From Rubrobacter tropicus (GTDB lineage: Bacteria > Actinomycetota > Rubrobacteria > Rubrobacterales > Rubrobacteraceae): DNA of 64,000 bases. The notes under the pieces were generated by a model. That model was not told the origin of the DNA and made no database searches. It saw only the letters and a program-made list of their open reading frames with translations. Both the position numbers and the translations under genes were made by a program. The first letter of the stretch is position 1. Each line of letters starts with the position of its first letter. The DNA is taken from the NCBI RefSeq assembly GCF_011492945.1, contig NZ_CP045119.1:3224001-3288000 (forward strand). Direction: 5' to 3'. Positions 40,058 through 53,763 of this stretch are shown here, piece after piece.

Positions 40058-40831
40058 CTACGAAACCTTCGCTTCCGACCTTCCGATGGGCCGCACCTCG
40101 ACCTCGTTCTCTTCCAGCTCACGCACTATGGTCTCGGCCAGCCTCACGACCCCGGGCGTGTCGCTGTGTACGCACACCGAGTCGCACTTGACCTCCACCT
40201 CTCCACCGCTCTCGGTCGTAACCCTCCCCTCTTTCACGGCCCGGACCACCCGCCGGGCCATCTCCTCCGGGTCGAGCTCGCCGGCGAGCTTGCGGGTAAA
40301 GACGATCTGGCCCTCGTCGTTGTAGGCCCGGTCGGCGAAGAACTCGGCCGCCACAGGCTGCCCCATCTCCCCGGCGAGTCTGTAGGTTACGGAAGACTCC
40401 ATGCAGAAGAGGACGAGGCCGGGGTCTACCTGTTGTACAGCTTCAATGATCGCGCGCGAGAGGGCCTCGTCGCGGGCCGCCACCATGTACAGGGCCCCGT
40501 GCGGCTTGACGTGCTGGACCTCCATCCCGTAGAGGCGGGCGAACTCGCGCAGGGCTCCGAGCTGGTAGAGCAGTTCGTCCCGGATCTCCTCGGGCGGGGC
40601 CTGGATCTCCCTCCTCCCAAACCCGACCAGATCCCGATACCCGCTATGCACCCCTACCGCGACTCCATGCTCCTTCGCCAGCGCAACGGTCTTCCGCATA
40701 ACGTGCGGGTCCCCAGCGTGAAATCCCCCCGCCACGTTCGCCGACGAAATAAACCGCATCAACTCCTCATCGGCCCCAAAACTGTAAGGCCCGAAGCTCT
40801 CCCCCATGTCGCAATTAAAGTCGATGTGCAA
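40058..40831 (-). CDS. pxpA: LamB/YcsF family protein, 5-oxoprolinase subunit A
   Basis: A 257-residue protein starting [19 protein letters not shown], the family signature. Other conserved segments are [44 protein letters not shown] and CVHSDTPGV. With PxpB and PxpC it forms a widespread bacterial 5-oxoprolinase that opens pyroglutamate with ATP. The TTG start has GGGAGG upstream. A repeat element separates it from pxpC. Confidence 0.93.
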
Positions 40832-40851
40832 GGTGCCTCCCTTCGGTCGAC

Positions 40852-41020
40852 TGCTATCAGCCGTCAGCTTTTAGCGTTCAGCTTTTTTGCCGTTTGAGAT
40901 TCGCTTTGAACTGGTCCACGAGAGCCCGCTACCTCAGCAAGGTTCTCGTAAGTGGATCGTGTTGCGGCCGTTAGTGAACCGTATTCCCTGGCTGATAGCT
41001 GACTGCTGATAGCTGAAAGC
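40852..41020. repeat. Dispersed intergenic repeat, copy C
   Basis: Left part CTGCTATCAGCCGTCAGC and TTTTAGCGTTCAGC (40851-40882), right part GGCTGATAGCTGACTGCTGA with TAGCTGAAAGC (40990-41020), separated by about 105 bases. It lies between pxpC and pxpA. The short GGAGGCGAAGCC module of other copies is absent. Confidence 0.75.
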
Positions 41021-41040
41021 GGGCTCACGATAGTGAGCCC
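41021..41040 (-). terminator. Hairpin at the end of pxpC
   Basis: GGGCTCA-CGATAG-TGAGCCC, a 7-bp stem whose loop region includes the pxpC stop codon (41025-41027). It may separate pxpBC from the downstream pxpA-biotinyl-coxL genes. Confidence 0.55.
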
Positions 41041-41999
41041 TTTATCTCCGCTAGCTTCCGCCGTCGTTCCTCTCGGGCGTTTAATGCTTCGTCCAGTTCG
41101 ATGGAGCGGAAGCGGGTCTTGTCGTTTGTCTTTGACTGGGCGAGGCGGTCGCGGTCGGCGCTTATTACGGTGCCGATGGTGGCGTAGCCCCCGCCGGTCA
41201 CGGCGTCGTTCATGAGGACTATGGGCTCGACGCCGCCCGGGACCTGGATGGAGCCTATCGGATAGCCGAAGTCGACGACGTTGGCCGGGTCGCTGCCCGC
41301 GCCCGCCGGTTGCTCTCGCTCGACGAAACCGAGCTCGCCTCCCCTGTAACGGTAACCGACCCGGTCGGCGTCAGGGGTAACCGTCCACTCCACGTTCAGG
41401 AACGTCTCTAGGCTCTCTTCCGTGAGGCGGTAGCTGGCGAGGCCGATGATCACCCGCAACTCGGTCTCTTTCGTGTAGGTTGGGATGTGGTCGTCGTCTA
41501 CGCGTTTGCCGACCTGGGCTTCGCCGTTTTGGGCTTCGCCGAGCTCGAGTTCATCGCCCTCCTGGAGTGCGCGGCCGTCGAGTCCTCCCAGCCCGATCAG
41601 GGTGTACGTCGAGCGGCTGTGCATGAAGACGGGGGCGTCTATGCCCCCGGCGACCGCCAGATACGAACGGGCGCCGTTCTTGAGGTAGTCGAATGACAGG
41701 ACGTCACCCTCCCTGACCTGCAACGCCTCCCAGGTCGGGGCCTCCTCGCCGTTTATCTTGGGCGGCATCTCTGCGCCGGTTACGGCCACGACGGCGTCCC
41801 CGGTGAACTCGAGTTCGGGCCCGAAGTACGTTATCTCGAGGCCCGCGGCGCCGTCCTCGTTGCCGACGAGGTAGTTGCCGACCTGGTAGGAGAAGACGTC
41901 CATCGCCCCGCTCGGCGGCATCCCGATGGCGTACTCGCCGAAGCGGCCGGTGTCCTGGACCGTCGTCAGGAGCCCGGGGCTCTTTACCCTAATCGCCAT
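41025..41999 (-). CDS. pxpC: Biotin-dependent carboxyltransferase family protein, 5-oxoprolinase subunit C (KipA)
   Basis: A 324-residue protein of the KipA/AHS2 family: IRVKSPGLLTTVQDTGRFGEYAIG, PPSGAMDVFSYQVGNYLVGN, LEITYFGPELEF, SYLAVAGGIDAP and VPGGVEPIVLMNDAVTGGGYATIGTV. Homologous domains are the carboxyltransferase half of urea amidolyase. The start overlaps pxpB by 11 bases. The nearby biotinyl and biotin carboxylase genes leave open whether this version is a true biotin enzyme. Confidence 0.92.
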   Translation of the reverse strand: MAIRVKSPGLLTTVQDTGRFGEYAIGMPPSGAMDVFSYQVGNYLVGNEDGAAGLEITYFGPELEFTGDAVVAVTGAEMPPKINGEEAPTWEALQVREGDVLSFDYLKNGARSYLAVAGGIDAPVFMHSRSTYTLIGLGGLDGRALQEGDELELGEAQNGEAQVGKRVDDDHIPTYTKETELRVIIGLASYRLTEESLETFLNVEWTVTPDADRVGYRYRGGELGFVEREQPAGAGSDPANVVDFGYPIGSIQVPGGVEPIVLMNDAVTGGGYATIGTVISADRDRLAQSKTNDKTRFRSIELDEALNAREERRRKLAEIKGSLS

Positions 42000-42894
42000 A
42001 GAGCACCCCCAGGATCTCCTCGTTGTACGCGTGCGGGTCCTCTAGCGCCCGGTCGGCGTGGAAGGTGAAGTCCTTCTTCCTGTACTCGAACGAACCGTCC
42101 TCCACCCTGGACCGGATCTCGTCGAACTCCTCCCTGTCCACCCCACGGTAGTTCCATATATCTCCGGGCCTCGGAAAGACTATCGAGTCCTGGAAATCCT
42201 TCAACCTCTGCTTCACGTCCAGGACCGGGGCCGGGGCGAGGCCGTAGAGCTGGTAGCCGCCGGCGCCCTGGACGGAGTAGACGACGGCGAAACCTCCGCC
42301 GAAGCCGAAGGCCCGCTCCGGGGTGAAGGTGCGGGGCCTGACGTACTTGGGGACCTCTACCTGTTCCTCGGGCGGGACCAGTTGGTAACACCACGGGAGG
42401 CCGGGCACGAACCCGATCATGGTGACGAGCCACGGCGAGCCGAGCAGCGCCGCGATGAAGTCGTCCTTGTTGTCGTAGCCGTTTATTCGCGCGGAGTACT
42501 CGAGGTCCGTCGCGTCAGGATCCTGGTGGCGGTCCCGGAAGCGCATGAGGGCCTCGTGGGTCCACGGGTCCTCCATCATTACCGGCACGTCCACGACGCG
42601 GGTCGGAAGCTCGAAGCCCTTCACGTCGCCGACCTCGTCGTCGATCTCCCTCAACCGCGAGATGAGCTTGTCCGGGTGGAGCACGTCGGGGTCTACGCGG
42701 ACCATGTAGGAGGCGTTGGAGGGGCAGATGTCCATTATGCCCTCCATCCTCTCTTCCTGGAGCCTGTTCGTTATCGCCATGGCCCTGAAGTTCACCTTGA
42801 GGCTCATGGCTTCGGCGAGCTCCACGAAGACGAACTCGTCCCCGCCGTAGCTGTAGCGCGCCTGCGGAAGCCCGGTCTCGACGTTAGCGCTCAT
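41989..42894 (-). CDS. pxpB: Carboxyltransferase family protein, 5-oxoprolinase subunit B (KipI)
   Basis: A 301-residue protein of the KipI/AHS1 family. It contains SYGGDEFVFVELAEAMSLKVN, the late motif GFVPGLPWCYQL, RPRTFTPERAFGFGGGFAVVY and the GGYQLYGLAP turn. It forms a complex with PxpC. The frame is open to 42960, but the extra residues run back through the promoter, so the ATG at 42894 is used. Confidence 0.9.
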   Translation of the reverse strand: MSANVETGLPQARYSYGGDEFVFVELAEAMSLKVNFRAMAITNRLQEERMEGIMDICPSNASYMVRVDPDVLHPDKLISRLREIDDEVGDVKGFELPTRVVDVPVMMEDPWTHEALMRFRDRHQDPDATDLEYSARINGYDNKDDFIAALLGSPWLVTMIGFVPGLPWCYQLVPPEEQVEVPKYVRPRTFTPERAFGFGGGFAVVYSVQGAGGYQLYGLAPAPVLDVKQRLKDFQDSIVFPRPGDIWNYRGVDREEFDEIRSRVEDGSFEYRKKDFTFHADRALEDPHAYNEEILGVLYGD

Positions 42895-42931
42895 GCAGTG
42901 GCACCCCTTTTTCCCTGGTAAGAGTGCCCGC

Positions 42932-42960
42932 ATAGTACCTACGCCAGATTTTTGGGTCAA
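42932..42960 (-). promoter_or_regulatory. pxpB promoter
   Basis: TTGACC (42955-42960) and TACTAT (42932-42937), spaced by exactly 17 bases, lie 38 bases before the pxpB start. The same 114-base gap must also drive bioY on the opposite strand. No clear BirA- or BioQ-type palindrome was found. Confidence 0.65.
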
Positions 42961-43008
42961 CGAATGCTAAAAGGTTATCGAAAAGACGAAAGCAAAAAGG
43001 AGACAGAC

Positions 43009-43551
43009 TTGAACGTAGCCGTGATGACCCGGGTGGCGTTAATGGCCGCTTTCACCGCCGTGGCGGCCCAGATCACGATCCCGCTGGAGCCCGTCCCGTT
43101 TACCCTGCAGGTTCTGGCCGTCGTTCTGACGGGCCTCTTGCTGGGTCCGCGCTACGGGGCGTTGGCCATGGGGGTCTACCTCCTCGTCGGGGCGGTAGGC
43201 GTCCCGGTCTTCGCGGGCTTCAGGGGCGGGCTCGGCGTCCTGTTCGGCGACACGGGAGGTTACCTGCTCGCCTACCCGCTGGCCGCCGCCCTCGCGGGTA
43301 TGGCCGCGGGCGCCGTCACGAACGCGCCCCGGCGTCGGGCGCTCGTCGCGGGGTTCCTGTGGGGCGGCCTGGCGCTCGTCGCGATCTACGCGCTCGGGGC
43401 CACGTGGCTCGCCGTCCTCGCCGGCCTCTCGCCGGGTGCGGCCCTGGCCGCGGGCGTCCTGCCCTTCGTGGTCTTTGATCTGATCAAAGTAGGTTTGGCT
43501 ACCCTCGTCGCCGTCGCCGTCGCACCCGCCATCGCCGCCTCACGGGCTTAA
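43009..43551 (+). CDS. bioY: Biotin transporter BioY (ECF-type S component)
   Basis: A 180-residue membrane protein with six hydrophobic helices. QITIPLEPVPFTLQVLAVVLTGLLLGPRYG is the BioY signature in two parts, and VPVFAGFRGGLGVLFGDTGGYL is a second conserved block. It brings biotin into the cell with or without an ECF energising unit, which is not in the window. AAAGGAG six bases before the TTG at 43009 fixes the start. Its position between pxpBC and the biotin carboxylase points to a biotin-demanding locus. Confidence 0.93.
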   Translation: MNVAVMTRVALMAAFTAVAAQITIPLEPVPFTLQVLAVVLTGLLLGPRYGALAMGVYLLVGAVGVPVFAGFRGGLGVLFGDTGGYLLAYPLAAALAGMAAGAVTNAPRRRALVAGFLWGGLALVAIYALGATWLAVLAGLSPGAALAAGVLPFVVFDLIKVGLATLVAVAVAPAIAASRA

Positions 43552-43563
43552 AGAGGAGGTTTC

Positions 43564-43613
43564 GGGCATCAGGTTTCAGGTTTTAGGGATGCTTTTGTGG
43601 CCTGAGGTCTGCG
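43564..43613. repeat. Second-type intergenic repeat, short copy
   Basis: GGCATCAGGTTTCAGG with TTTTAGG and, after 12 bases, GGCCTGAGGTCTGCGGG. It resembles the CAGG-word element at 36944-37071 and lies between bioY and the biotin carboxylase. Confidence 0.45.
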
Positions 43614-43671
43614 GGCGCGAGGTCTACGGCGCGGCTAGTATGACGGCCAGATCCAGAGGAGGGTGAACCGT

Positions 43672-45009
43672 ATGTTCGAGAAGGTGCTGGTCGCCAACCG
43701 GGGGGAGATCGCGCTTCGCGTAGTCCGCGCGTGCCAGGAGCTCGGCGTCCCCGCTGTCGCCGTTTACTCCGACGCCGACGAGTCGGCCCTCCACGTCCGC
43801 CACGCCGACGAGTCGGTCAACATAGGCCCCCCTGCGGCGGGCAAGAGCTACCTGAACGCGGGGGGGATCATCGAGGCCGCGAAAGAGGCCGGCGCCGACG
43901 CGGTTCATCCCGGCTACGGCTTTCTCGCCGAGAACGCCGCCTTCGCGAAGGCGGTAACGGACGCCGGCTTGAAGTTTATAGGCCCTTCGGCGGAGGCCAT
44001 CGAGAAGCTCGGGGACAAGTCCGCCGCCAGAAGGCTGGCGCGGGAGGCCGACGTGCCGGTCGTGCCTGGCTCGGAGAACGTCTCTTCGGCGGATGAGGCG
44101 GTCGATACGGCGGAGGAGATAGGGTACCCCGTCATGATCAAGGCGGCTGCGGGCGGCGGGGGACGCGGCATCCGGGTGGCGGAGAACGAGGAGGAGCTGC
44201 GCGAATCGGTGCAGGCGGCCAAACGCGAGGCCCAGTCCGCCTTCGGGGACGGGACGCTCTACCTGGAGAAGTTCCTCGCCGGCCCGCGCCACGTCGAGGT
44301 GCAGGTAATGGCCGACGAGCGGGGCAACGCCATCCACCTCTACGAACGCGAGTGCTCGATGCAGCGCCGCCGCCAGAAGGTGCTCGAAGAGTCGCCCTCG
44401 CCCGGCATAAGCCGGGAGGTCCGGGAGAAGATGTGCGAGGCGGCCGTCCGGTTGGCCCGGGAGGCGGACTACGCCAACGCCGGGACCGTCGAGTTCCTTG
44501 TCGAGGGGGACGATTTCTACTTCATCGAGATGAACACTCGCATACAGGTGGAGCACCCGGTAACGGAGATGCTCACGGGTGTGGACCTCGTGAAAGAGCA
44601 GATCCTGGCGGCGTCTGGCGAACCCCTGAGCCTGAAACAGGAGGACGTCCCCTTCGTCGGCCACTCGATAGAGTTCCGCATCAACGCCGAGGACCCCGAG
44701 AACGACTTCATGCCCTCCCCCGGCGAGGTAACGTTCCTCGACGTGCCGGGCGGCCCCGGCGTCAGGGTAGACTCGGCGATGTACCAGGGCTACAAGATAC
44801 CGCCGTTCTACGACTCGATGGTGGGCAAGCTCATAGTCTGGGCGTTGACGCGGGACGAGGCCATAAGCCGCGCCCGCCGCGCCCTGCGCGAGTACCGGCT
44901 CGAAGGCATCAAGACAACCATTTCACTCCACCTGCGGCTGCTGGAAGATAAGGCTTTCCGCTCGGGCGACTACCACACGGGGTATCTGGAAGAGTTGTTG
45001 GACGAGTAA
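43672..45009 (+). CDS. accC: Biotin carboxylase
   Basis: A 445-residue ATP-grasp enzyme that carboxylates biotin on a carrier domain. Landmarks are FEKVLVANRGEIALRVVRAC, HPGYGFLAEN, the glycine loop KAAAGGGGRGIR, HVEVQVMADERGN, the ERECSMQRRRQK loop and IEMNTRIQVEHPVTEM. It lacks any fused carrier or transferase domain, and the separate biotinyl protein at 39794 is the likely partner. The ATG at 43672 has GGAGG nine bases ahead; a GTG three codons upstream touches that site and is rejected. Confidence 0.93.
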   Translation: MFEKVLVANRGEIALRVVRACQELGVPAVAVYSDADESALHVRHADESVNIGPPAAGKSYLNAGGIIEAAKEAGADAVHPGYGFLAENAAFAKAVTDAGLKFIGPSAEAIEKLGDKSAARRLAREADVPVVPGSENVSSADEAVDTAEEIGYPVMIKAAAGGGGRGIRVAENEEELRESVQAAKREAQSAFGDGTLYLEKFLAGPRHVEVQVMADERGNAIHLYERECSMQRRRQKVLEESPSPGISREVREKMCEAAVRLAREADYANAGTVEFLVEGDDFYFIEMNTRIQVEHPVTEMLTGVDLVKEQILAASGEPLSLKQEDVPFVGHSIEFRINAEDPENDFMPSPGEVTFLDVPGGPGVRVDSAMYQGYKIPPFYDSMVGKLIVWALTRDEAISRARRALREYRLEGIKTTISLHLRLLEDKAFRSGDYHTGYLEELLDE

Positions 45010-46210: not shown

Positions 46211-47551
46211 TTACGCCACAGAGTCTACAGCGCGGCCCAGGATCGCGAGTCCCTCTTCTAGCTCGTCGTCGGCTATGTTGAGGGGCATGAGGGTGCGGAT
46301 GCAGTTGCCGTACTGGCCCGCAGTGAGGAGGAGCAAGCCTTCCTGCAAAGCGGCCTGCACTATTTTGGCGTTGCGCTCCTTGTCCGGGGTCTTCGTCTGG
46401 GCGTCGGTGACGAACTCCATGGCGGCCATCGGGCCGAGGCCACGAACGTCGCCCACGAAATCGGGGTGCCTGGCCTGGATCTCACGCATGGCGGACATGA
46501 CTTTGTCCCCGAGGGCGTTCGCCTTGCCCAGGAGGTCTTCTTCCTCGAAGGTGTCGAGGACGGCCAGGGCGGCGGCGCACGCGATCGGGTTGCCGCCGTA
46601 GGTGGTGCCGAGACCGCCGGCGTGGACGGAGTCCATGATCTCGGCCTTCCCGGTAACGCCCGCTATGGGCAACCCGCCGCCCATGCTCTTGGCCGTGGTC
46701 ATGATGTCGGGCTCGACCCCAGAGTGCTCTACCGCGAACATCTTGCCCGTCCGCCCGAAGCCCGTCTGGACCTCGTCCACGATCATCACGATGCCGTGCT
46801 CGTCGCACAGCTCTCGCAATTGCCTGAGGTAGAAGTCCGGGAACGGTATGAACCCGCCCTCGCCGCTCACCGGCTCGACTATGATCGCCGCCACGCTGCT
46901 GGGATGCACGGTGCTCACGAAGGCCTTCTCTATGGCTCCGAAGCAGTCGCCCTGGCAACCCCCGGAACAGTCTTTTCCTGACGGACACCTGTACGCATAA
47001 GGCGAAGGGACCCGGTAAACCTCCGGGACGAAGGGGCCGAAGCCCTTCTTGTACGGGTCGGTCTTGCCGGTGAGGGTCATGGCGAGCATGGTACGGCCGT
47101 GGAAGGAGTTCTCGAAGGCGATGACCGCCTGGCGGCCGGTGTAGTAGCGTGCGATCTTGACGGCGTTCTCCACGGCCTCGGCCCCGGAGTTGACGAAGAA
47201 AGACCGCTTCTCGGAACTCCCCGGAACGAGCGCGTTCAGCCTCTCGGCGAGCTCTATGTACTCCTCGTACTCCGTGACGTAGAAGCAGGTGTGCGTCAAC
47301 TGCTCGGCCTTCTCCTTGACCGCGTCGACCACCCGCGAGCTCGCGTGCCCGATGTTCATGACGCCGATGCCGCCGCCGAAGTCTATGAACGTGTTGCCGT
47401 CGACGTCGGTCAGCAAAGCGCCCTTCGCCTCCTGGGCGAACATCGGGGTAGCTATGCCAACGCCCGAGGTCACGGCCTTGTGCCGCCGCTCCATCAACGC
47501 CCGGCTCTTCGGCCCCGGTATCTCCGTCTTGATCCTCGCGGAATCGAGCAT
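46211..47551 (-). CDS. gabT: 4-Aminobutyrate aminotransferase
   Basis: A class III PLP aminotransferase of 446 residues. FFVNSGAEAVENAVKIARYY, SFHGRTMLAMTLTGK, VDEVQTGFGRTGKMFA and the PLP lysine in TTAKSMGGGLPIAG are clear. PCGYRC-like cysteines in CPSGKDCSGGCQGDC form an insert seen in GABA/5-aminovalerate transaminases. It transfers the amino group of GABA to 2-oxoglutarate. The ATG at 47551 is preferred over a GTG nine bases upstream, which sits on the ribosome binding site. Last gene of the operon. Confidence 0.93.
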   Translation of the reverse strand: MLDSARIKTEIPGPKSRALMERRHKAVTSGVGIATPMFAQEAKGALLTDVDGNTFIDFGGGIGVMNIGHASSRVVDAVKEKAEQLTHTCFYVTEYEEYIELAERLNALVPGSSEKRSFFVNSGAEAVENAVKIARYYTGRQAVIAFENSFHGRTMLAMTLTGKTDPYKKGFGPFVPEVYRVPSPYAYRCPSGKDCSGGCQGDCFGAIEKAFVSTVHPSSVAAIIVEPVSGEGGFIPFPDFYLRQLRELCDEHGIVMIVDEVQTGFGRTGKMFAVEHSGVEPDIMTTAKSMGGGLPIAGVTGKAEIMDSVHAGGLGTTYGGNPIACAAALAVLDTFEEEDLLGKANALGDKVMSAMREIQARHPDFVGDVRGLGPMAAMEFVTDAQTKTPDKERNAKIVQAALQEGLLLLTAGQYGNCIRTLMPLNIADDELEEGLAILGRAVDSVA

Positions 47552-47613
47552 CCTCGCCACCTCTTCCTGTCGGCCTCTCTTTTTCCAGTATACCCGTAAG
47601 GGCGGATCCGGAC

Positions 47614-49074
47614 CTACGTCGCGGTGATGCCCCCGAGGGAGACGTACTTGGTGTCCAGGTACTCCTCGATACCCTGGTGTCCGCCCTCGCGTCCGACGCC
47701 GCTCTCCTTCAGCCCGCCGAACGGGGCCTGGGCCGTCGAAGGCATCCCGTCGTTAGCCCCGATGATCCCGTACTCCAGGTTCTCCGCGAGCCGGAAGACA
47801 CGGCCCACGTCGCGGGTGAAGTAGTAGGCGGCGAGGCCGTAGACCGTGTCGTTGGCCCGCCGAACTACCTCGTCTTCCGTATCGAAAGGCATGATCGCGG
47901 CGACGGGCCCGAACGTCTCCTCCTTTGCGACGAGCATCGAGTCGTCGGCGCCCGTCAGGACCGTCGGGGGGTAGAAGTTGCCGTTGGCCGAACCGTTCGT
48001 CCTCTCACCGCCGAGGGCGACCGTGGCGCCCTTCGCCACGGCGTCGGCGACGTGGCGCTCGACCTTGTCGATGGCCTTCGGCTCGATGAGCGGCCCCACC
48101 TCGACGCCATCTTCCATCCCGTCCCCGACCTTCATCGCTGCCATCTTCTCGGTGAGTTTCTTCGAGAACTCGTCAAGGATGCCGCGCTGGACGAAGACGC
48201 GGTTGGCGCAGACGCACGTCTGGCCCATGTTGCGCATCTTCGAGACCAGGGCGCCCTCGACGGCCGCGTCCACGTCGGCGTCGTCGAAGACTATGAACGG
48301 GGCGTGGCCGCCAAGTTCCAGGGAGAGGCGTTTCATCGTGTCTGTCGACTGCTTCATCAGGAGCTTGCCGACATCGGTCGAGCCGGTAAAAGAGAGCTTG
48401 CGGACGCGCCGGTCTTCCATGATCGGTGCGGTGATGGCGGCGGGGTCCATGCCGGCGACCACCGAGAGGACGCCCGCGGGGAGGCCGGCCTCCTCGAAGA
48501 TCTTCGCCATCTCGAGCGCCGAGAGCGGCGTGAGCTCGGAGGGCTTTATGACCATCGTGCAGCCGGCGGCCAAAGCGGGGCCGAGCTTGCGCGTGATCAT
48601 GGCGGCCGGGAAGTTCCACGGCGTGATCGCGGCCGTCACCCCCACCGGGCGCTTGATGACCATGATCCTCTTGTCCGGGAAGCTCGCCGGGACCGTGTCG
48701 CCGTAGACGCGTCGGGCCTCCTCGGCGAACCACTCGATAAACGAGGCGGCGTAGACGATCTCGCCGCGCGATTCGGCGATCGGTTTGCCCTGCTCCAGGG
48801 TCATCACGGTGGCGAGGTGCTCTTTCCTCTCGTGCATCAAGTCCGCGGCCCGGCGCATGATCCTGGCGCGTTTCTGGGCCGTGGTCGCCGCCCACTCCTT
48901 CTGGACGGCAGCGGCGTCTATGGCCCTCTGCATCTCCTCCCGGCCGGCATCCGGCAGCGTCGCCAGCGTCTCGCCGTTGGCGGGGTTGGTCACGCCGAAG
49001 GTGTTGCCCGAGGCGGCGCCGTCCACCCACTCGCCGCCGACAAAGAGTTGCTCGACCAGTCCAGGCAGGATCAC
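47614..49074 (-). CDS. gabD: Succinate-semialdehyde dehydrogenase
   Basis: A 486-residue aldehyde dehydrogenase. The nucleotide motif FTGSTDVGKLL, the catalytic glutamate in LELGGHAPFIVFDDAD and the cysteine in NMGQTCVCANR are present, and APFGGLKESGVGREGG near the C-terminus is typical of GabD. It oxidises succinate semialdehyde, made by GabT, to succinate. The GTG start has GGAGG upstream. It lies 39 bases after the 75-aa gene. Confidence 0.94.
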   Translation of the reverse strand: MILPGLVEQLFVGGEWVDGAASGNTFGVTNPANGETLATLPDAGREEMQRAIDAAAVQKEWAATTAQKRARIMRRAADLMHERKEHLATVMTLEQGKPIAESRGEIVYAASFIEWFAEEARRVYGDTVPASFPDKRIMVIKRPVGVTAAITPWNFPAAMITRKLGPALAAGCTMVIKPSELTPLSALEMAKIFEEAGLPAGVLSVVAGMDPAAITAPIMEDRRVRKLSFTGSTDVGKLLMKQSTDTMKRLSLELGGHAPFIVFDDADVDAAVEGALVSKMRNMGQTCVCANRVFVQRGILDEFSKKLTEKMAAMKVGDGMEDGVEVGPLIEPKAIDKVERHVADAVAKGATVALGGERTNGSANGNFYPPTVLTGADDSMLVAKEETFGPVAAIMPFDTEDEVVRRANDTVYGLAAYYFTRDVGRVFRLAENLEYGIIGANDGMPSTAQAPFGGLKESGVGREGGHQGIEEYLDTKYVSLGGITAT

Positions 49075-49113: not shown

Positions 49114-49341
49114 CTACGCCGGATACGGGGCCCGCTGAAGAACCGCGTCCTGCACGGTCTCCTCGACCTGGGCAAACGACGGCATGCGCGGCGTGTTCGA
49201 GATCACGGGGTCCTTCAAGCAGTCCCGGACGGTCCCGGCGAGCATCCCACCGTCCGCCGTTACGTCCGACGGCACGTTTCTTATCACCCGGACGATTGGG
49301 TTCTTTAACGCCTCGACGGCCGCCACGCCCGTGATCTTCAC
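49114..49341 (-). CDS. 75-residue protein of unknown function coupled to the Fae-like gene
   Basis: A short protein with the sequence pattern KITGVAAVEALKNPIVRV, then DVTADGGMLAGTVRDCLKD and PRMPSFAQVEETVQD. I do not recognise the family. Its GTG overlaps the stop codon of the Fae-like gene (GTGA), so it is translationally coupled and likely works with it. No signal peptide or membrane segment is visible; one cysteine is present. Codon use matches the neighbours. Confidence 0.6.
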   Translation of the reverse strand: MKITGVAAVEALKNPIVRVIRNVPSDVTADGGMLAGTVRDCLKDPVISNTPRMPSFAQVEETVQDAVLQRAPYPA

Positions 49342-49853
49342 CCGGGACCCCCGAAGAACGGGTTCGATGGGGAGCCCGCCAGCGCGAGAACGTCCTCGAC
49401 CGAGGGCGTTCCCCTGATGGCCGCCTGAATGGCCTCCTTTACAGAGCGCCGGTTGTTCTCGAAGACGGCCCCCTCGTCGTTCGCCTCCGGGTTGACGTAG
49501 ACGGCCGCGATGCAGAGGAGTTCGCGCGCCTCCTCTGCGGGCACGATGCCGTCCACGATGGCGTCGGCGACCCCGCCGGCGATCCCGGCCTGCGCCGCGC
49601 CGAACGTCAGGTTGACGTGGAGGTCTCCCCCCATCGTCGCCTTGTTGACGAACAGCGTGAACGGCAGCACGGGCACCCCCGGGCGAACCACCGCCACGAA
49701 CGGGGTGTGGCCCATCCGGGGCGTAGCCAGGGCCGTGGTCCAGGCCGTCTCGACCGCACCGCCCTTGCGGCCGATAACGACGTTGACGTGCGCGGCGTTG
49801 ACACCCTCCCCGACGAAAGACTCCCCGATCAAACTCCCGTCCGCGAACCGCAC
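49338..49853 (-). CDS. Formaldehyde-activating-enzyme (Fae) family protein
   Basis: A 171-residue protein with the Fae fold landmarks GESFVGEGVNAAHVNVVIGRKGG, where the histidine corresponds to the catalytic residue. Others are HTPFVAVV, LPFTLFVNKATM, NLTFGAAQAGIAGGVADAIVDGIVPAEEA and ENNRRSVKEAIQAA. True Fae joins formaldehyde to tetrahydromethanopterin in methylotrophs. Several near-active-site residues differ (AAHVN where Fae has VAHID), so substrate identity is open. It sits between a Na+ symporter and gabD in a GABA/guanidino operon, where a formaldehyde role is unexpected. The GTG at 49853 follows AGAGAGGA. Confidence 0.85.
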   Translation of the reverse strand: MRFADGSLIGESFVGEGVNAAHVNVVIGRKGGAVETAWTTALATPRMGHTPFVAVVRPGVPVLPFTLFVNKATMGGDLHVNLTFGAAQAGIAGGVADAIVDGIVPAEEARELLCIAAVYVNPEANDEGAVFENNRRSVKEAIQAAIRGTPSVEDVLALAGSPSNPFFGGPG

Positions 49854-49898: not shown

Positions 49899-51341
49899 TT
49901 ACGCGCGCCGGCTCCCGGCGCCCTCCCCGCCTATCCGGCGCTCCCAGGCCGACATGGTCTCCGAAGAAGCCCTCGGCGTGAGGAGGCTTACGACGACGAA
50001 AAAGAAGAGGCTGGTCAGTATCCCCACATATATGGGCGCGTTGGCTTCGAGCCCGAGAAGCATCATCAGCACCACGACCACGGCCCCGCTGATCGCCATT
50101 GAGGTCAGCGCCCCGGCCCCGGTAGCCCGCCGCCAGAACAACGCGCCGATGATGGGCACGAACAGGGCTCCGACGAGCAGGTTGTAGGCGACCGTCAGCG
50201 CGCCCACGACGTCGCTAACGAGCACCGAGATGACGAGAACCACGACCCCGACGAGCAACGTCGCCAGCCGGCTCGCGTTGTACTCCCCGGCCCCGGCGTG
50301 GTCCTCGCGCCGAAAGAGGCCGGCGTAGACGTCGTTGGCGAGGATGGTGGACGAAGCCAGAAGTCCCGCGCTGGCGGTGGACATCACGGCGGCCAGGGCC
50401 GCGGCGAGCACCAGGCCAAGGACGCCGGCCGGCAGGACCTCGCCGGCGACTCGGGCGAAGGCGTTGTCCGAGTTGGGGAGGTCCGGGATCAGGACGCGGG
50501 CGGCCGTCCCGATCAGGGCCCCCGCGAGGCCGTACAGCAGGCAATAGAGCCCGGCCACGACGCCGCCCCACCGGGCGACCGAGGGGCCACGGGCCGTGAA
50601 GACCCGCTGCCAGATGTCCTGCCCGATCATGAGCCCGAAAAAGAACAGCAAAAAGTACGTGAAGATCGTCTGCCCGCCGATGGAGAAAGGGTCGAAGTAA
50701 GAGCCGGGCAATTCACCGCCCATCCCGGAGAAGCCGCCGGCCCTGGTAATGCTAAGGGGCAGCAGGATCAGGAATATCCCCACCGTCATCACGCAAAACT
50801 GCAGGAAGTCCGTCAGGGTAATCGACCACATGCCACCCAGAGCCGAGTAGGCGACGACCACGCCGCCGGCGATCAGGATGGCGAGCGTCGGCGGCAGACC
50901 GAGGACGACGTCGAAGACCGAGCCGACGGCGATGGTGGACGTAACCGCGATCATGAGCGCGTAGGCCGCCACGATGATCGCGGATATAAGCCGCGACGAG
51001 GCGCCGTAGCGAATGCCGAGCATCTCCGAGACGGTGTAGACGCCGAGCCGGCTCAGGCGGGTCGAGAGCAGGATGCCCAAAGCTATGATCCCGAGCCCGA
51101 TCATGAAGACCAGCCACATCCCCGAAACGCCGAACTCGTACCCCAACGACACGCTCCCGATGGTGGACGCCCCCCCGAGCACCACCGCGCTCAGAGTCCC
51201 GATGTAGAGCGCCGGCCCGAGCCTCCTCCCTGCGACCAGATAATCTTCCGTGCTGCCCGCCCGCCTCAGCCCCCAGTACCCCGCCCCGAGCATGGCGGCG
51301 AAGTAGAGGCCGAGAACCAGGTAGTCGAGGGCGTCACCCAT
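49899..51341 (-). CDS. Sodium:solute symporter (SSS family)
   Basis: A 480-residue transporter with about 13 hydrophobic helices. It starts DYLVLGLYFAAMLGAGYWGLRRAGSTEDYLVAGRRLG, the SSS N-terminal signature, and has VVAYSALGGMWSITLTDFLQF and DIWQRVFTARGPSVARWGG. The last two are hallmarks of the proline/pantothenate/panthothenate-like group. The substrate is probably a compound used by this operon, such as a guanidino acid or polyamine. Its ATG overlaps the preceding stop (ATGGGTGA). Confidence 0.88.
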   Translation of the reverse strand: MGDALDYLVLGLYFAAMLGAGYWGLRRAGSTEDYLVAGRRLGPALYIGTLSAVVLGGASTIGSVSLGYEFGVSGMWLVFMIGLGIIALGILLSTRLSRLGVYTVSEMLGIRYGASSRLISAIIVAAYALMIAVTSTIAVGSVFDVVLGLPPTLAILIAGGVVVAYSALGGMWSITLTDFLQFCVMTVGIFLILLPLSITRAGGFSGMGGELPGSYFDPFSIGGQTIFTYFLLFFFGLMIGQDIWQRVFTARGPSVARWGGVVAGLYCLLYGLAGALIGTAARVLIPDLPNSDNAFARVAGEVLPAGVLGLVLAAALAAVMSTASAGLLASSTILANDVYAGLFRREDHAGAGEYNASRLATLLVGVVVLVISVLVSDVVGALTVAYNLLVGALFVPIIGALFWRRATGAGALTSMAISGAVVVVLMMLLGLEANAPIYVGILTSLFFFVVVSLLTPRASSETMSAWERRIGGEGAGSRRA

Positions 51342-52290
51342 CCCGGTTTTTCTTCTGGAGGGCGATCAACGCCAGAAAATCGTGGGCCACGTTGGCCGCC
51401 ACGAGCGCCGTTACCTGACCGGGGCCGTCGTAGGCCGGGCAGACCTCGACCACGTCGCAGCCGACGATGTTTATTCCGACCAGCCCCCGCACGAACTCCT
51501 GCGCCTCCCGGCTCGTGTAGCCCCCGATCTCCGGCGTCCCGGTGCCCGGGGCGTAGGCGGGGTCGACGAAGTCGATGTCGAAAGAGACGTAGGCCTTCGC
51601 GTCGCCGACGCGTTCCTTTATCCGCTCTATTACGGCCGGTATTCCGAGATCGCGCACCTCGTCCGTAGGTACCAGGTCGAAGCCCATCTCCTTCGCGTCG
51701 TCCCAGTCGCGCTCGTCGTAGATGGAACCGCGCATACCGACCTGGATCGAACGCGAGGGGTCGAGTATCCCTTCTTCGACCGCCCGCCTGAAAGGTGTTC
51801 CGTGAGTGTACTCCTGGCCGAAGTAGGCGTCCCAGGTATCCGGGTGAGAGTCGAATTGGACCAGGGCCAGAGGTCCGTGGACGGCCGCGGCGGCGCGGAG
51901 CTCGGGCAGCGCTATGGAGTGGTCGCCGCCGAGGACTATGGGGACGACGCCGGCGCGGTGGATGGGTTCGAGTCCTTCGGCGATCGTCTCGTAGCTCTCC
52001 CGGATAAAGCCCGGCACGACGGGCACGTCGCCGTAGTCGATCACGGAGAGGTAATCGAAGATGGTGACGCCGAGGCCGGAGTTGTGGCGTCGCAGGAGGT
52101 GGGAGACGCTCCTGATCGCCTCCGGTCCGAAGCGGGCGCCGACGCGGAAGGTGGCTCCGGTGTCGAAGGGGGCGCCGACTATGGCGGCGTCGGCGTTGTC
52201 GAGGTCGCGGTTGTTGGGCAGCCGCATGAAGGTGCGGACGTCCGAGAAGCGCGGGGTCGCGAACGAGTCGGCTGGTTCGTACCGGGTCAA
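51334..52290 (-). CDS. speB: Agmatinase/ureohydrolase family enzyme (possible guanidinobutyrase)
   Basis: A 318-residue binuclear-manganese ureohydrolase. The metal motifs are GGDHSIALPE, QFDSHPDTW and SFDIDFVDPAYAPGTGTPEIGG. GAPFDTGATFRVGARFGPEAIR is the usual agmatinase/guanidinobutyrase start. The enzyme removes urea from a guanidino compound. With gabT and gabD in the same operon, 4-guanidinobutyrate (which gives GABA) is at least as likely a substrate as agmatine. TTG start with AGGAGA upstream. Confidence 0.9.
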   Translation of the reverse strand: MTRYEPADSFATPRFSDVRTFMRLPNNRDLDNADAAIVGAPFDTGATFRVGARFGPEAIRSVSHLLRRHNSGLGVTIFDYLSVIDYGDVPVVPGFIRESYETIAEGLEPIHRAGVVPIVLGGDHSIALPELRAAAAVHGPLALVQFDSHPDTWDAYFGQEYTHGTPFRRAVEEGILDPSRSIQVGMRGSIYDERDWDDAKEMGFDLVPTDEVRDLGIPAVIERIKERVGDAKAYVSFDIDFVDPAYAPGTGTPEIGGYTSREAQEFVRGLVGINIVGCDVVEVCPAYDGPGQVTALVAANVAHDFLALIALQKKNRDG

Positions 52291-52305: not shown

Positions 52306-53763
52306 CTAGTTGTTGCGGGCGGCCTCACCGTGGGCGGTCGTCTCCTCGCTAATCACCGCTGCGGGGTCCCGCTGCGGCGGGCCGAAGGCGCGACGCAGGA
52401 GGTAGGCGACCATGATCACCCCGAGGCTTATGAGGCTCGCGATGATCTGGGGCCGCAGCCCCTCTATAAAAAACATGGCGCCGAGCACCAGGACGATGCC
52501 GAAGATCGAGAGGTACGTCAGCCACGGGTAGAACCACATCTTTATCTGCAACGCCTCCGGGTTGTCCCGCTCCAGGCGACGGCGCATCACGAGCTGGGAG
52601 ATGGCTATGAGGAGGTAGACGAAGAGCGCTATGGCCCCCGAGGCGTTGATGAGCCAGGTAAAGACCTCCTCCGGGAAAAAATAGAAGATGCCGACCGAGA
52701 CGTAGGCGAAGATCGTCCCGGCCAGGATCGCCCAGATCGGGACGCCCCGACGGGTCGTCTTGGTCAGGAAGCCCGGGGCGTCGTTGTGGCGGGTGAGGGC
52801 GAAGAGCATCCGGCTCGTGGTGTAGAGGCTCGAGTTCAGCACGGAGAGCACGGCCGTCAGCACGACGAGGTTCATGAAGAGCGGCGCGTAGGGTATCCCG
52901 ATCTCGCCGAACGCCAGGGTGAAGGGGCTCTTGAGCACGTCGTCCGTAAAGCCGGTGTCCCATGGGACGATGCACGCGACGAAGAAGACGGAGATGACGT
53001 AGAAGATAAGCACCCGGTAGATGACCGCGTTCGTCGCCCGGGCCACGTTCCTGCCCGGCTCGTCGGACTCCGCGGCGGCGATGGTCACGATCTCGGCCCC
53101 CACGAAGGCGAAGATGACGGTCGCCACCCCGCTGAACATCGCCAGCGGCCCGTTCGGGAAGAACCCGCCTTCGTCGTAGAGGTTCGAGACCCCGACGCCC
53201 CCGCCGGGCCAGAGCCCGATCACGAACAAGGCGGCGAGCCCGATGAAGATCAGGATCGCCACGACCTTTATCCCCGCAAACCAGAACTCGAACTCCCCGT
53301 AAGACCCCACCGAGTAGAGGTTGGTCGCCGTGAGCAACAACACGAGGATGAAGGCCATCACCCAGGGCGGTATCCCGGGGATGTACTGGCCCAGGATACC
53401 GGCGGCCACGACGGCTTCGAACCCCACGACGATGGCCCAGAAATACCAGTAGAGCCAACCTATGGCGAACCCGGCCCAGTTTCCCAAAGCTATCCTGCTG
53501 TAGTCGGAGAAGGAGCCCACGGAGGGCCGGGCGACGGCCATCTCCCCGAGCATCCGCATGATTAGGATGAGCAGGGTCCCGGTCAGAAGGTACGTGAGGA
53601 TGGTCGCCGGGCCCGCCTGGTTGAGGATCGGGCCGGTGCCGACGAAGAGGCCGGCGCCGATGATCCCGCCGAGCGAGATCATGGTCATGTGCCGCCGCTT
53701 TAAGCCTGCCTGAAGCTTGCCCTGCCCCTCTTGGGTCCTCTCGCCCGCGGTCGCCTCGGCCAT
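52306..53763 (-). CDS. Amino acid permease (APC/AAT family), likely GABA or basic amino acid
   Basis: A 485-residue permease with 12 predicted helices. The N-terminal GLKRRHMTMISLGGIIGAGLFVGTGP and the motif EIVTIAAAESDEPGRNVARATN are diagnostic of the AAT family, which includes GabP. The operon context suggests uptake of GABA or of a guanidino compound. AAAGGGGAAGC precedes the ATG. It lies 15 bases upstream of the ureohydrolase. Confidence 0.9.
   Translation of the reverse strand: MAEATAGERTQEGQGKLQAGLKRRHMTMISLGGIIGAGLFVGTGPILNQAGPATILTYLLTGTLLILIMRMLGEMAVARPSVGSFSDYSRIALGNWAGFAIGWLYWYFWAIVVGFEAVVAAGILGQYIPGIPPWVMAFILVLLLTATNLYSVGSYGEFEFWFAGIKVVAILIFIGLAALFVIGLWPGGGVGVSNLYDEGGFFPNGPLAMFSGVATVIFAFVGAEIVTIAAAESDEPGRNVARATNAVIYRVLIFYVISVFFVACIVPWDTGFTDDVLKSPFTLAFGEIGIPYAPLFMNLVVLTAVLSVLNSSLYTTSRMLFALTRHNDAPGFLTKTTRRGVPIWAILAGTIFAYVSVGIFYFFPEEVFTWLINASGAIALFVYLLIAISQLVMRRRLERDNPEALQIKMWFYPWLTYLSIFGIVLVLGAMFFIEGLRPQIIASLISLGVIMVAYLLRRAFGPPQRDPAAVISEETTAHGEAARNN

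Follow-up and report, generated by a model that had tools for sequence, protein, structure and literature searches.

Formaldehyde-activating enzyme (Fae) condenses formaldehyde with H4MPT via a hemiaminal or iminium; the canonical gene lies beside mch or fhc genes. Known operons for the use of GABA and 4-guanidinobutyrate have the order gabP-ureohydrolase-gabD-gabT. Some methylotrophs contain additional Fae proteins. Methyloversatilis universalis FAM5 has two distant, functionally uncharacterised homologues, Fae2 and Fae3; knocking out fae2 and fae3 did not impair growth on C1 compounds (PMC5023235). A literature search for Fae homologues in bacteria lacking H4MPT found no study; a SAR11 paper was set aside as it concerns Gfa, an unrelated glutathione enzyme.

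The window, a 64,000-nucleotide stretch of the Rubrobacter tropicus chromosome, contains all four genes of a GABA/4-guanidinobutyrate operon, in the known order and on the minus strand. These are a gabP-type amino acid permease (52306..53763, by family matches), a ureohydrolase (51334..52290), a gabD-type succinate-semialdehyde dehydrogenase (SSADH; 47614..49074; TIGR01780, 658 bits, cut-off 646) and gabT, a GABA:2-oxoglutarate transaminase (46211..47560; TIGR00700, 575 bits, cut-off 507). The closest solved relatives of the ureohydrolase are 3-guanidinopropionase (2e-83) and guanidinobutyrase (2e-79), followed by proclavaminate amidinohydrolase and agmatinases; consequently, it is reasonable to read the operon as one of GABA/guanidinobutyrate type, in which a ureohydrolase for guanidino acids accompanies SSADH and GABA transaminase. 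The first-pass annotation had described the same context, and had correctly placed a Fae-like gene between a sodium symporter and gabD. The symporter is an SSF sodium:solute symporter by family match (49899..51341, minus strand).

In contrast to sister GABA operons, the window operon holds an inserted, and then decayed, fae cassette. The feature at 49114..49853 is the remnant of a catabolic cassette of fae-like, MR/MLE enolase, PuuC-like ALDH and Fe-ADH genes within the GABA/guanidinobutyrate operon. Our account of it has three parts: the cassette decayed by deletion, the surviving protein is a member of a separate branch within the Fae superfamily, and, less certainly, this branch consists of pterin-independent aldehyde or hemiaminal enzymes, one of which is stranded in the window. 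We give this account as a whole a probability of about 0.6.

The history of the locus can be read from related genomes. Of the genomes in the same genus, G001 lacks both fae and the symporter (gabP-ureohydrolase-gabD-gabT), and G004 lacks fae (gabP-ureohydrolase-SSF-gabD). Two congeneric uncultured Rubrobacteraceae MAGs, G003 and G005, have gabP-ureohydrolase-fae-enolase-ALDH-Fe-ADH-gabD-gabT, with gabD truncated in the G005 contig (loci L007 and L005, respectively; contigs L008 and L009 are the same loci). The window order is gabP-ureohydrolase-SSF-fae-scar-gabD-gabT. The symporter also adjoins the ureohydrolase in G004, G006 and G008, and is missing from the locus in G001, G003 and G005. The simplest history that we infer starts with an operon into which the cassette was inserted; part of the cassette was then deleted in the window lineage, and the G003/G005 lineage lost the symporter.

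In G003 and G005 the intact order at this site is fae, MR/MLE enolase, PuuC-like ALDH, Fe-ADH and gabD, and the enolase of both starts with VKITGV inside the GTGA of the fae stop. In the window, a 75-codon ORF with a GTG start (49114..49341, minus strand) overlaps the fae stop by GTGA (49338..49341), as first reported; the same overlap is found at 3008-3011 in L007 and 6961-6964 in L005. The first six codons of the ORF (49324..49341) are the VKITGV of the enolase, and the last approximately 69 codons (49114..49323) are the end of Fe-ADH, with 64-65% identity to the Fe-ADH tails of G003 and G005. The ORF reads VKITGV, then AAVEALKN...DPVISNTPRMPSF...APYPA; aligned with the L007 Fe-ADH, which ends ...DPVILNTPRMPS...VPHPA, its tail has 63% identity over residues 326-396. 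In the DNA alignment one side of the join is the fae-enolase junction, and the other is the Fe-ADH tail with the intergenic stretch to gabD. A single in-frame deletion of approximately 3.8 kb by L007 coordinates, with a short common GGCG-type stretch at the join, thus accounts for the loss of the enolase, the ALDH and all but the end of Fe-ADH; fae was spared, and the start of the enolase was joined to what remained of Fe-ADH. The fusion has inherited its GTGA overlap from the ancestral coupling of fae to the enolase. Neither the enolase nor Fe-ADH has a close duplicate elsewhere in the window genome, where the best matches have 35% and 34% identity, respectively. At 2230-3200 of L005, a stretch of N is flanked on each side by a copy of the Fe-ADH tail, and gabD is truncated; this is likely to be a MAG assembly error.

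The 75-residue product had been called an orphan protein paired with the Fae-like protein. An orphan would have no homologue outside the locus; here the C-terminal 69 residues match the Fe-ADH tails of G003 and G005, and the intact parents of both parts of the fusion are present in these two genomes. The orphan or partner-protein reading is rejected on this basis. Since the second member of the supposed pair is a deletion scar, there is no 75-residue partner to co-purify. It could still be argued that the fusion gave birth to a real small protein which now acts with Fae, as it keeps a start, a stop, translational coupling and its spacing to gabD. This is highly improbable. A query with the 75 residues across 21 genomes matches only the window, the Fe-ADH tails of G003 and G005 and, weakly, the same region in G012; the ORF itself is found in one genome and is a tail cut from Fe-ADH. 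Relative to L007, the tail has 31 nonsynonymous and 16 synonymous changes (dN/dS 0.62), against a dN/dS of 0.28 between the intact genomes for the last 60 shared Fe-ADH codons; these numbers are small, and they point in the direction of relaxed constraint. A single deletion can therefore yield a convincing translationally coupled orphan protein, which calls for caution with small operon ORFs.

The Fae-like gene itself (49338..49853, minus strand) has a GTG start at 49853 and a stop at 49338-49340, and encodes 171 residues. Its assignment as a Fae homologue stands: it matches Pfam Fae (PF08714) with 174 bits against a cut-off of 27 (E=2.7e-51) and passes the NCBIfam equivalog TIGR03126 with 156 bits (cut-off 118). 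The AF2 model (pLDDT 94.1) has as its top structure matches 1Y5Y and 1Y60, the Fae of M. extorquens AM1, with TM about 0.9, Z about 27 and rmsd 1.4-1.6 A; the best superposition gives Z 27.3 and 1.4 A over 161 residues at 34% identity. These matches indicate that the Fae fold is retained. Weaker structural similarities, to EF-G and the spliceosome (Z below 9), were disregarded as a common arrangement. This is the single Fae gene of the window genome (4.58 Mb, Rubrobacteraceae); among 59 relatives of this genome only three others have one.

Relatives of the protein are nevertheless found in many other bacteria. When 84,980 species genomes were scanned with a four-sequence alignment, using patterns which excluded the active-site and clade-signature positions discussed below, 112 relatives were found. 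The best 80 of the 112 were kept; these are mostly from Actinomycetota, with a few from Chloroflexota, Binatota, Acidobacteriota and proteobacterial MAGs. In all, 91 clade members were compared with nine canonical Fae sequences (1Y5Y and eight plasmid-borne homologues, one of which lies beside mch). Residues are numbered as in 1Y5Y counting Met1, so that His22 is presumably the His17 of the Fae literature.

The window protein shares family, fold and the catalytic residues His22, Lys71 and Gln88 with M. extorquens Fae; the three residues are kept in 91/91 sampled clade members and 9/9 canonical sequences. Position 24 is Asn in all 91 clade members and Asp in all nine canonical sequences, while position 79 is His in the former (91/91) and Gln in the latter (9/9). 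Asp24 of canonical Fae is, we assume, a ligand contact. Many further positions in the same alignment are switched and fixed across the clade. This agrees with the first-pass observation of a kept catalytic His with changed neighbouring residues. In the tree, the split between canonical and Fae-like sequences has support of 100/100 and the window clade does not group with characterised Fae. Alignment and tree together place the window protein in a separate clade of its superfamily, marked by residues that are invariant within it.

The additional Fae proteins of methylotrophs differ from this clade. The second Fae of Methylocystis groups with canonical Fae. Paralogues from Methylobacterium, Caballeronia, Aquabacterium and Phyllobacterium (L132-L136, plasmid records) form their own group (100/100), in which the catalytic His is replaced by Met and the Asp after this position by Glu; that of Aquabacterium olei adjoins formylmethanofuran dehydrogenase and fhcD genes. 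When this third branch is added to the tree the three groups are separate, and the Fae-like clade is again a single group (93/97). L132-L136 are possibly the Fae2/Fae3-type paralogues of the literature. Because the Methylocystis protein groups with canonical Fae and the Methylobacterium-type protein has lost its His, neither type corresponds to the window clade. A Fae2/Fae3-type identity is thus rejected on the strength of the Methylocystis and Methylobacterium-type proxies.

The first-pass annotation also doubted that this is an ordinary H4MPT-linked Fae, and named a full H4MPT pathway elsewhere, with this as its only Fae, as evidence that would count against its proposal. No sign of such a pathway was found: neither MCH nor FTR is present in the window genome, G003 or G005 (0/3 each), and the window genome has no beta-RFAP synthase; the marker searches were positive in archaeal controls. 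MCH is also absent from 49 further genomes with this Fae clade (0/49); as some are incomplete MAGs, absence from any single one is weak and the weight lies in the number of genomes. An ordinary methylotrophy gene is rejected on these grounds, and the doubt is further supported by the position of relatives among semialdehyde and aldehyde dehydrogenases. Because the protein passes the TIGR03126 cut-off, carrier genomes are automatically labelled as having an H4MPT formaldehyde enzyme; the clade member of Streptomyces clavuligerus, for example, is annotated as formaldehyde-activating enzyme. This name is probably wrong for the clade, a widespread, uncharacterised and probably misannotated branch of a known family.

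Gene context differs from that of canonical Fae. Clade genes are found in clusters of aldehyde and hydroxyacid dehydrogenases, not beside mch or fhc genes. In the first of two settings, an IclR-type regulator and often an OsmF/OpuC-type ABC importer are followed by fae and then by combinations of MR/MLE enolase, PuuC-like ALDH, HIBADH/GarR-like dehydrogenase, Fe-ADH and SSADH-type ALDH. This setting is found in Streptomyces, Kitasatospora, Actinomadura, Nonomuraea, Sphaerisporangium, Lentzea, Umezawaea and Microbacterium. The order fae-enolase-ALDH-(HIBADH)-Fe-ADH-SSADH is seen in Sphaerisporangium, Actinomadura and Nonomuraea, and plasmid pSCL4 of S. clavuligerus (L094, 8523-15799) has an importer-fae-dehydrogenase-SSADH module. 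On this giant plasmid, which belongs to a culturable strain, the module is flanked by biosynthetic genes (NRPS/PKS, sulfotransferase, terpene synthase).

Gene counts near fae (<5 kb) and far from it (>6.5 kb) are 42/0 for ALDH, 29/0 for HIBADH, 19/0 for Fe-ADH, 27/0 for the HalD-like oxygenase described below, 25/0 for IclR and 20/1 for the OsmF binding protein; p-values from these counts are descriptive, as the families were defined from near genes and the genomes are related. SDR, GlcD-like and FGGY-kinase neighbours were not used due to lack of enrichment near versus far. The closest solved relatives are galactonate dehydratase and uncharacterised MR/MLE enzymes for the enolase, 2-hydroxymethylglutarate dehydrogenase for the HIBADH, and binders of choline, glycine betaine, carnitine or ergothioneine for the OsmF-like protein. 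The first-pass statement that nothing else in the operon makes formaldehyde is true of the decayed window operon only; among solved structures, the Fe-ADH of the intact cassette is nearest to an NAD-dependent methanol dehydrogenase, although this proves nothing about the Fe-ADH substrate. As judged from these sequence comparisons, the solved relatives of the enolase, HIBADH, OsmF-like protein and Fe-ADH are too broad to name the cassette compound.

The second setting is found in freshwater Acidimicrobiia and others. Here a HalD-like Fe/2OG oxygenase lies directly before fae, often overlapping it, in 29 sampled loci (including L016, L027, L033-L035, L041, L042, L044-L047, L051, L053 and L081). 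Its alignment keeps WHxDQTD, the H-x-D of a hydroxylase and not the H-x-G of a halogenase; a search of the PDB found no relative better than E about 0.007. Two loci labelled as a Bifidobacterium breve MAG (L079, L084) have the gene order of freshwater Ilumatobacteraceae/Acidimicrobiia contigs, and these labels are probably wrong.

The oxygenase is a possible source of formaldehyde, and the clade could therefore be a tetrahydrofolate-dependent Fae which speeds the condensation of formaldehyde with H4F and detoxifies formaldehyde from the neighbouring oxygenase or dehydrogenases. The kept His, Lys and Gln would suit this role, and in one freshwater group a gene resembling methylenetetrahydrofolate reductase (by eye) lies a few genes from fae. 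However, the replacement by Asn in 91/91 members of the Asp two residues after His runs counter to the conservation expected of a pocket that binds a pterin, and the actinomycete core cassette has no folate enzyme. We regard tetrahydrofolate dependence as unlikely.

The first-pass annotation suggested that the pair may act on another reactive aldehyde, for example succinate semialdehyde or aminobutyraldehyde; the Fae-like protein would then serve the GABA/guanidinobutyrate operon. In the window fae does adjoin gabD, and SSADH-type ALDHs adjoin fae in many genomes; those beside the Burkholderia, Caballeronia and Ensifer members have about 56-57% identity to the gabD of L008. However, G001 and G004 have the operon without fae, the clade is usually found in clusters with neither gabT nor ureohydrolase, and the claimed partner protein is a scar. 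As sister gabP-ureohydrolase-gabD(-gabT) operons manage without fae and the gene travels elsewhere with a different cassette, a role in GABA/guanidinobutyrate breakdown is not supported, and this proposal is distinctly improbable.

An enzyme acting on aldehyde-amine adducts is the most economical reading, because His, Lys and Gln are kept, other residues are changed, H4MPT is missing and the neighbours are aldehyde enzymes. The His, Lys and Gln of the active site would bind an aldehyde, and the enzyme would form or break a hemiaminal or iminium with a non-pterin amine; clade members would not charge H4MPT. The neighbouring ALDH, Fe-ADH and hydroxyacid dehydrogenases would then process the aldehyde. 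The pathway may break down an imported compound, probably osmolyte-like (quaternary or N-substituted), a guess that follows from the ligands of the importer's closest solved relatives. The contexts cannot all be explained by one substrate, as the Burkholderia, Caballeronia and Ensifer members have other transporters or, in Caballeronia and Ensifer, an aldo-keto reductase beside fae. Aldehyde and amine partners named from gene neighbours are guesses. We propose only tentatively that the clade is a pterin-free family making or breaking aldehyde-amine adducts in the catabolism of N-substituted osmolyte-like compounds, in Actinomycetota and beyond, with one branch acting directly on the product of the coupled HalD-like oxygenase. 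If this is true, the Fae fold has a new reaction which is hidden by its annotation. Once the real substrate is established, many annotations could be put right, the fold would have a second reaction, and the compound on which the OsmF-type importer cassette feeds would be known.

The window copy of this putative adduct enzyme is probably without a pathway, and may be retained for a side activity or be heading to loss; since its cassette partners are gone, loss of fae function may follow. It may already be a non-functional relic, present only because the deletion is recent. The removal of three partner genes, with no close copies elsewhere in the genome, makes this quite conceivable, if short of probable; against it, the reading frame is open, every clade-invariant residue is present and dN/dS is not raised (0.27 for window versus sisters, 0.37 for sister versus sister). 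These values largely reflect evolution that preceded the deletion and are no evidence of present function; they suggest that the gene was under constraint and say nothing of constraint today.

Two further features were observed around the operon. A second close ureohydrolase (76% identity) of the same genome lies outside the window at G000:C1:2251685-2252611, in a different setting, with two SDRs and a transporter-like gene. The window region 40058-45009, downstream of the GABA operon, holds a 5-oxoprolinase-type cluster, which includes a LamB/YcsF-like protein identified by eye (40058-40831) and a carboxyltransferase-domain protein (41025-41999), and next to it a biotin-carboxylase-like gene (43663-45009).
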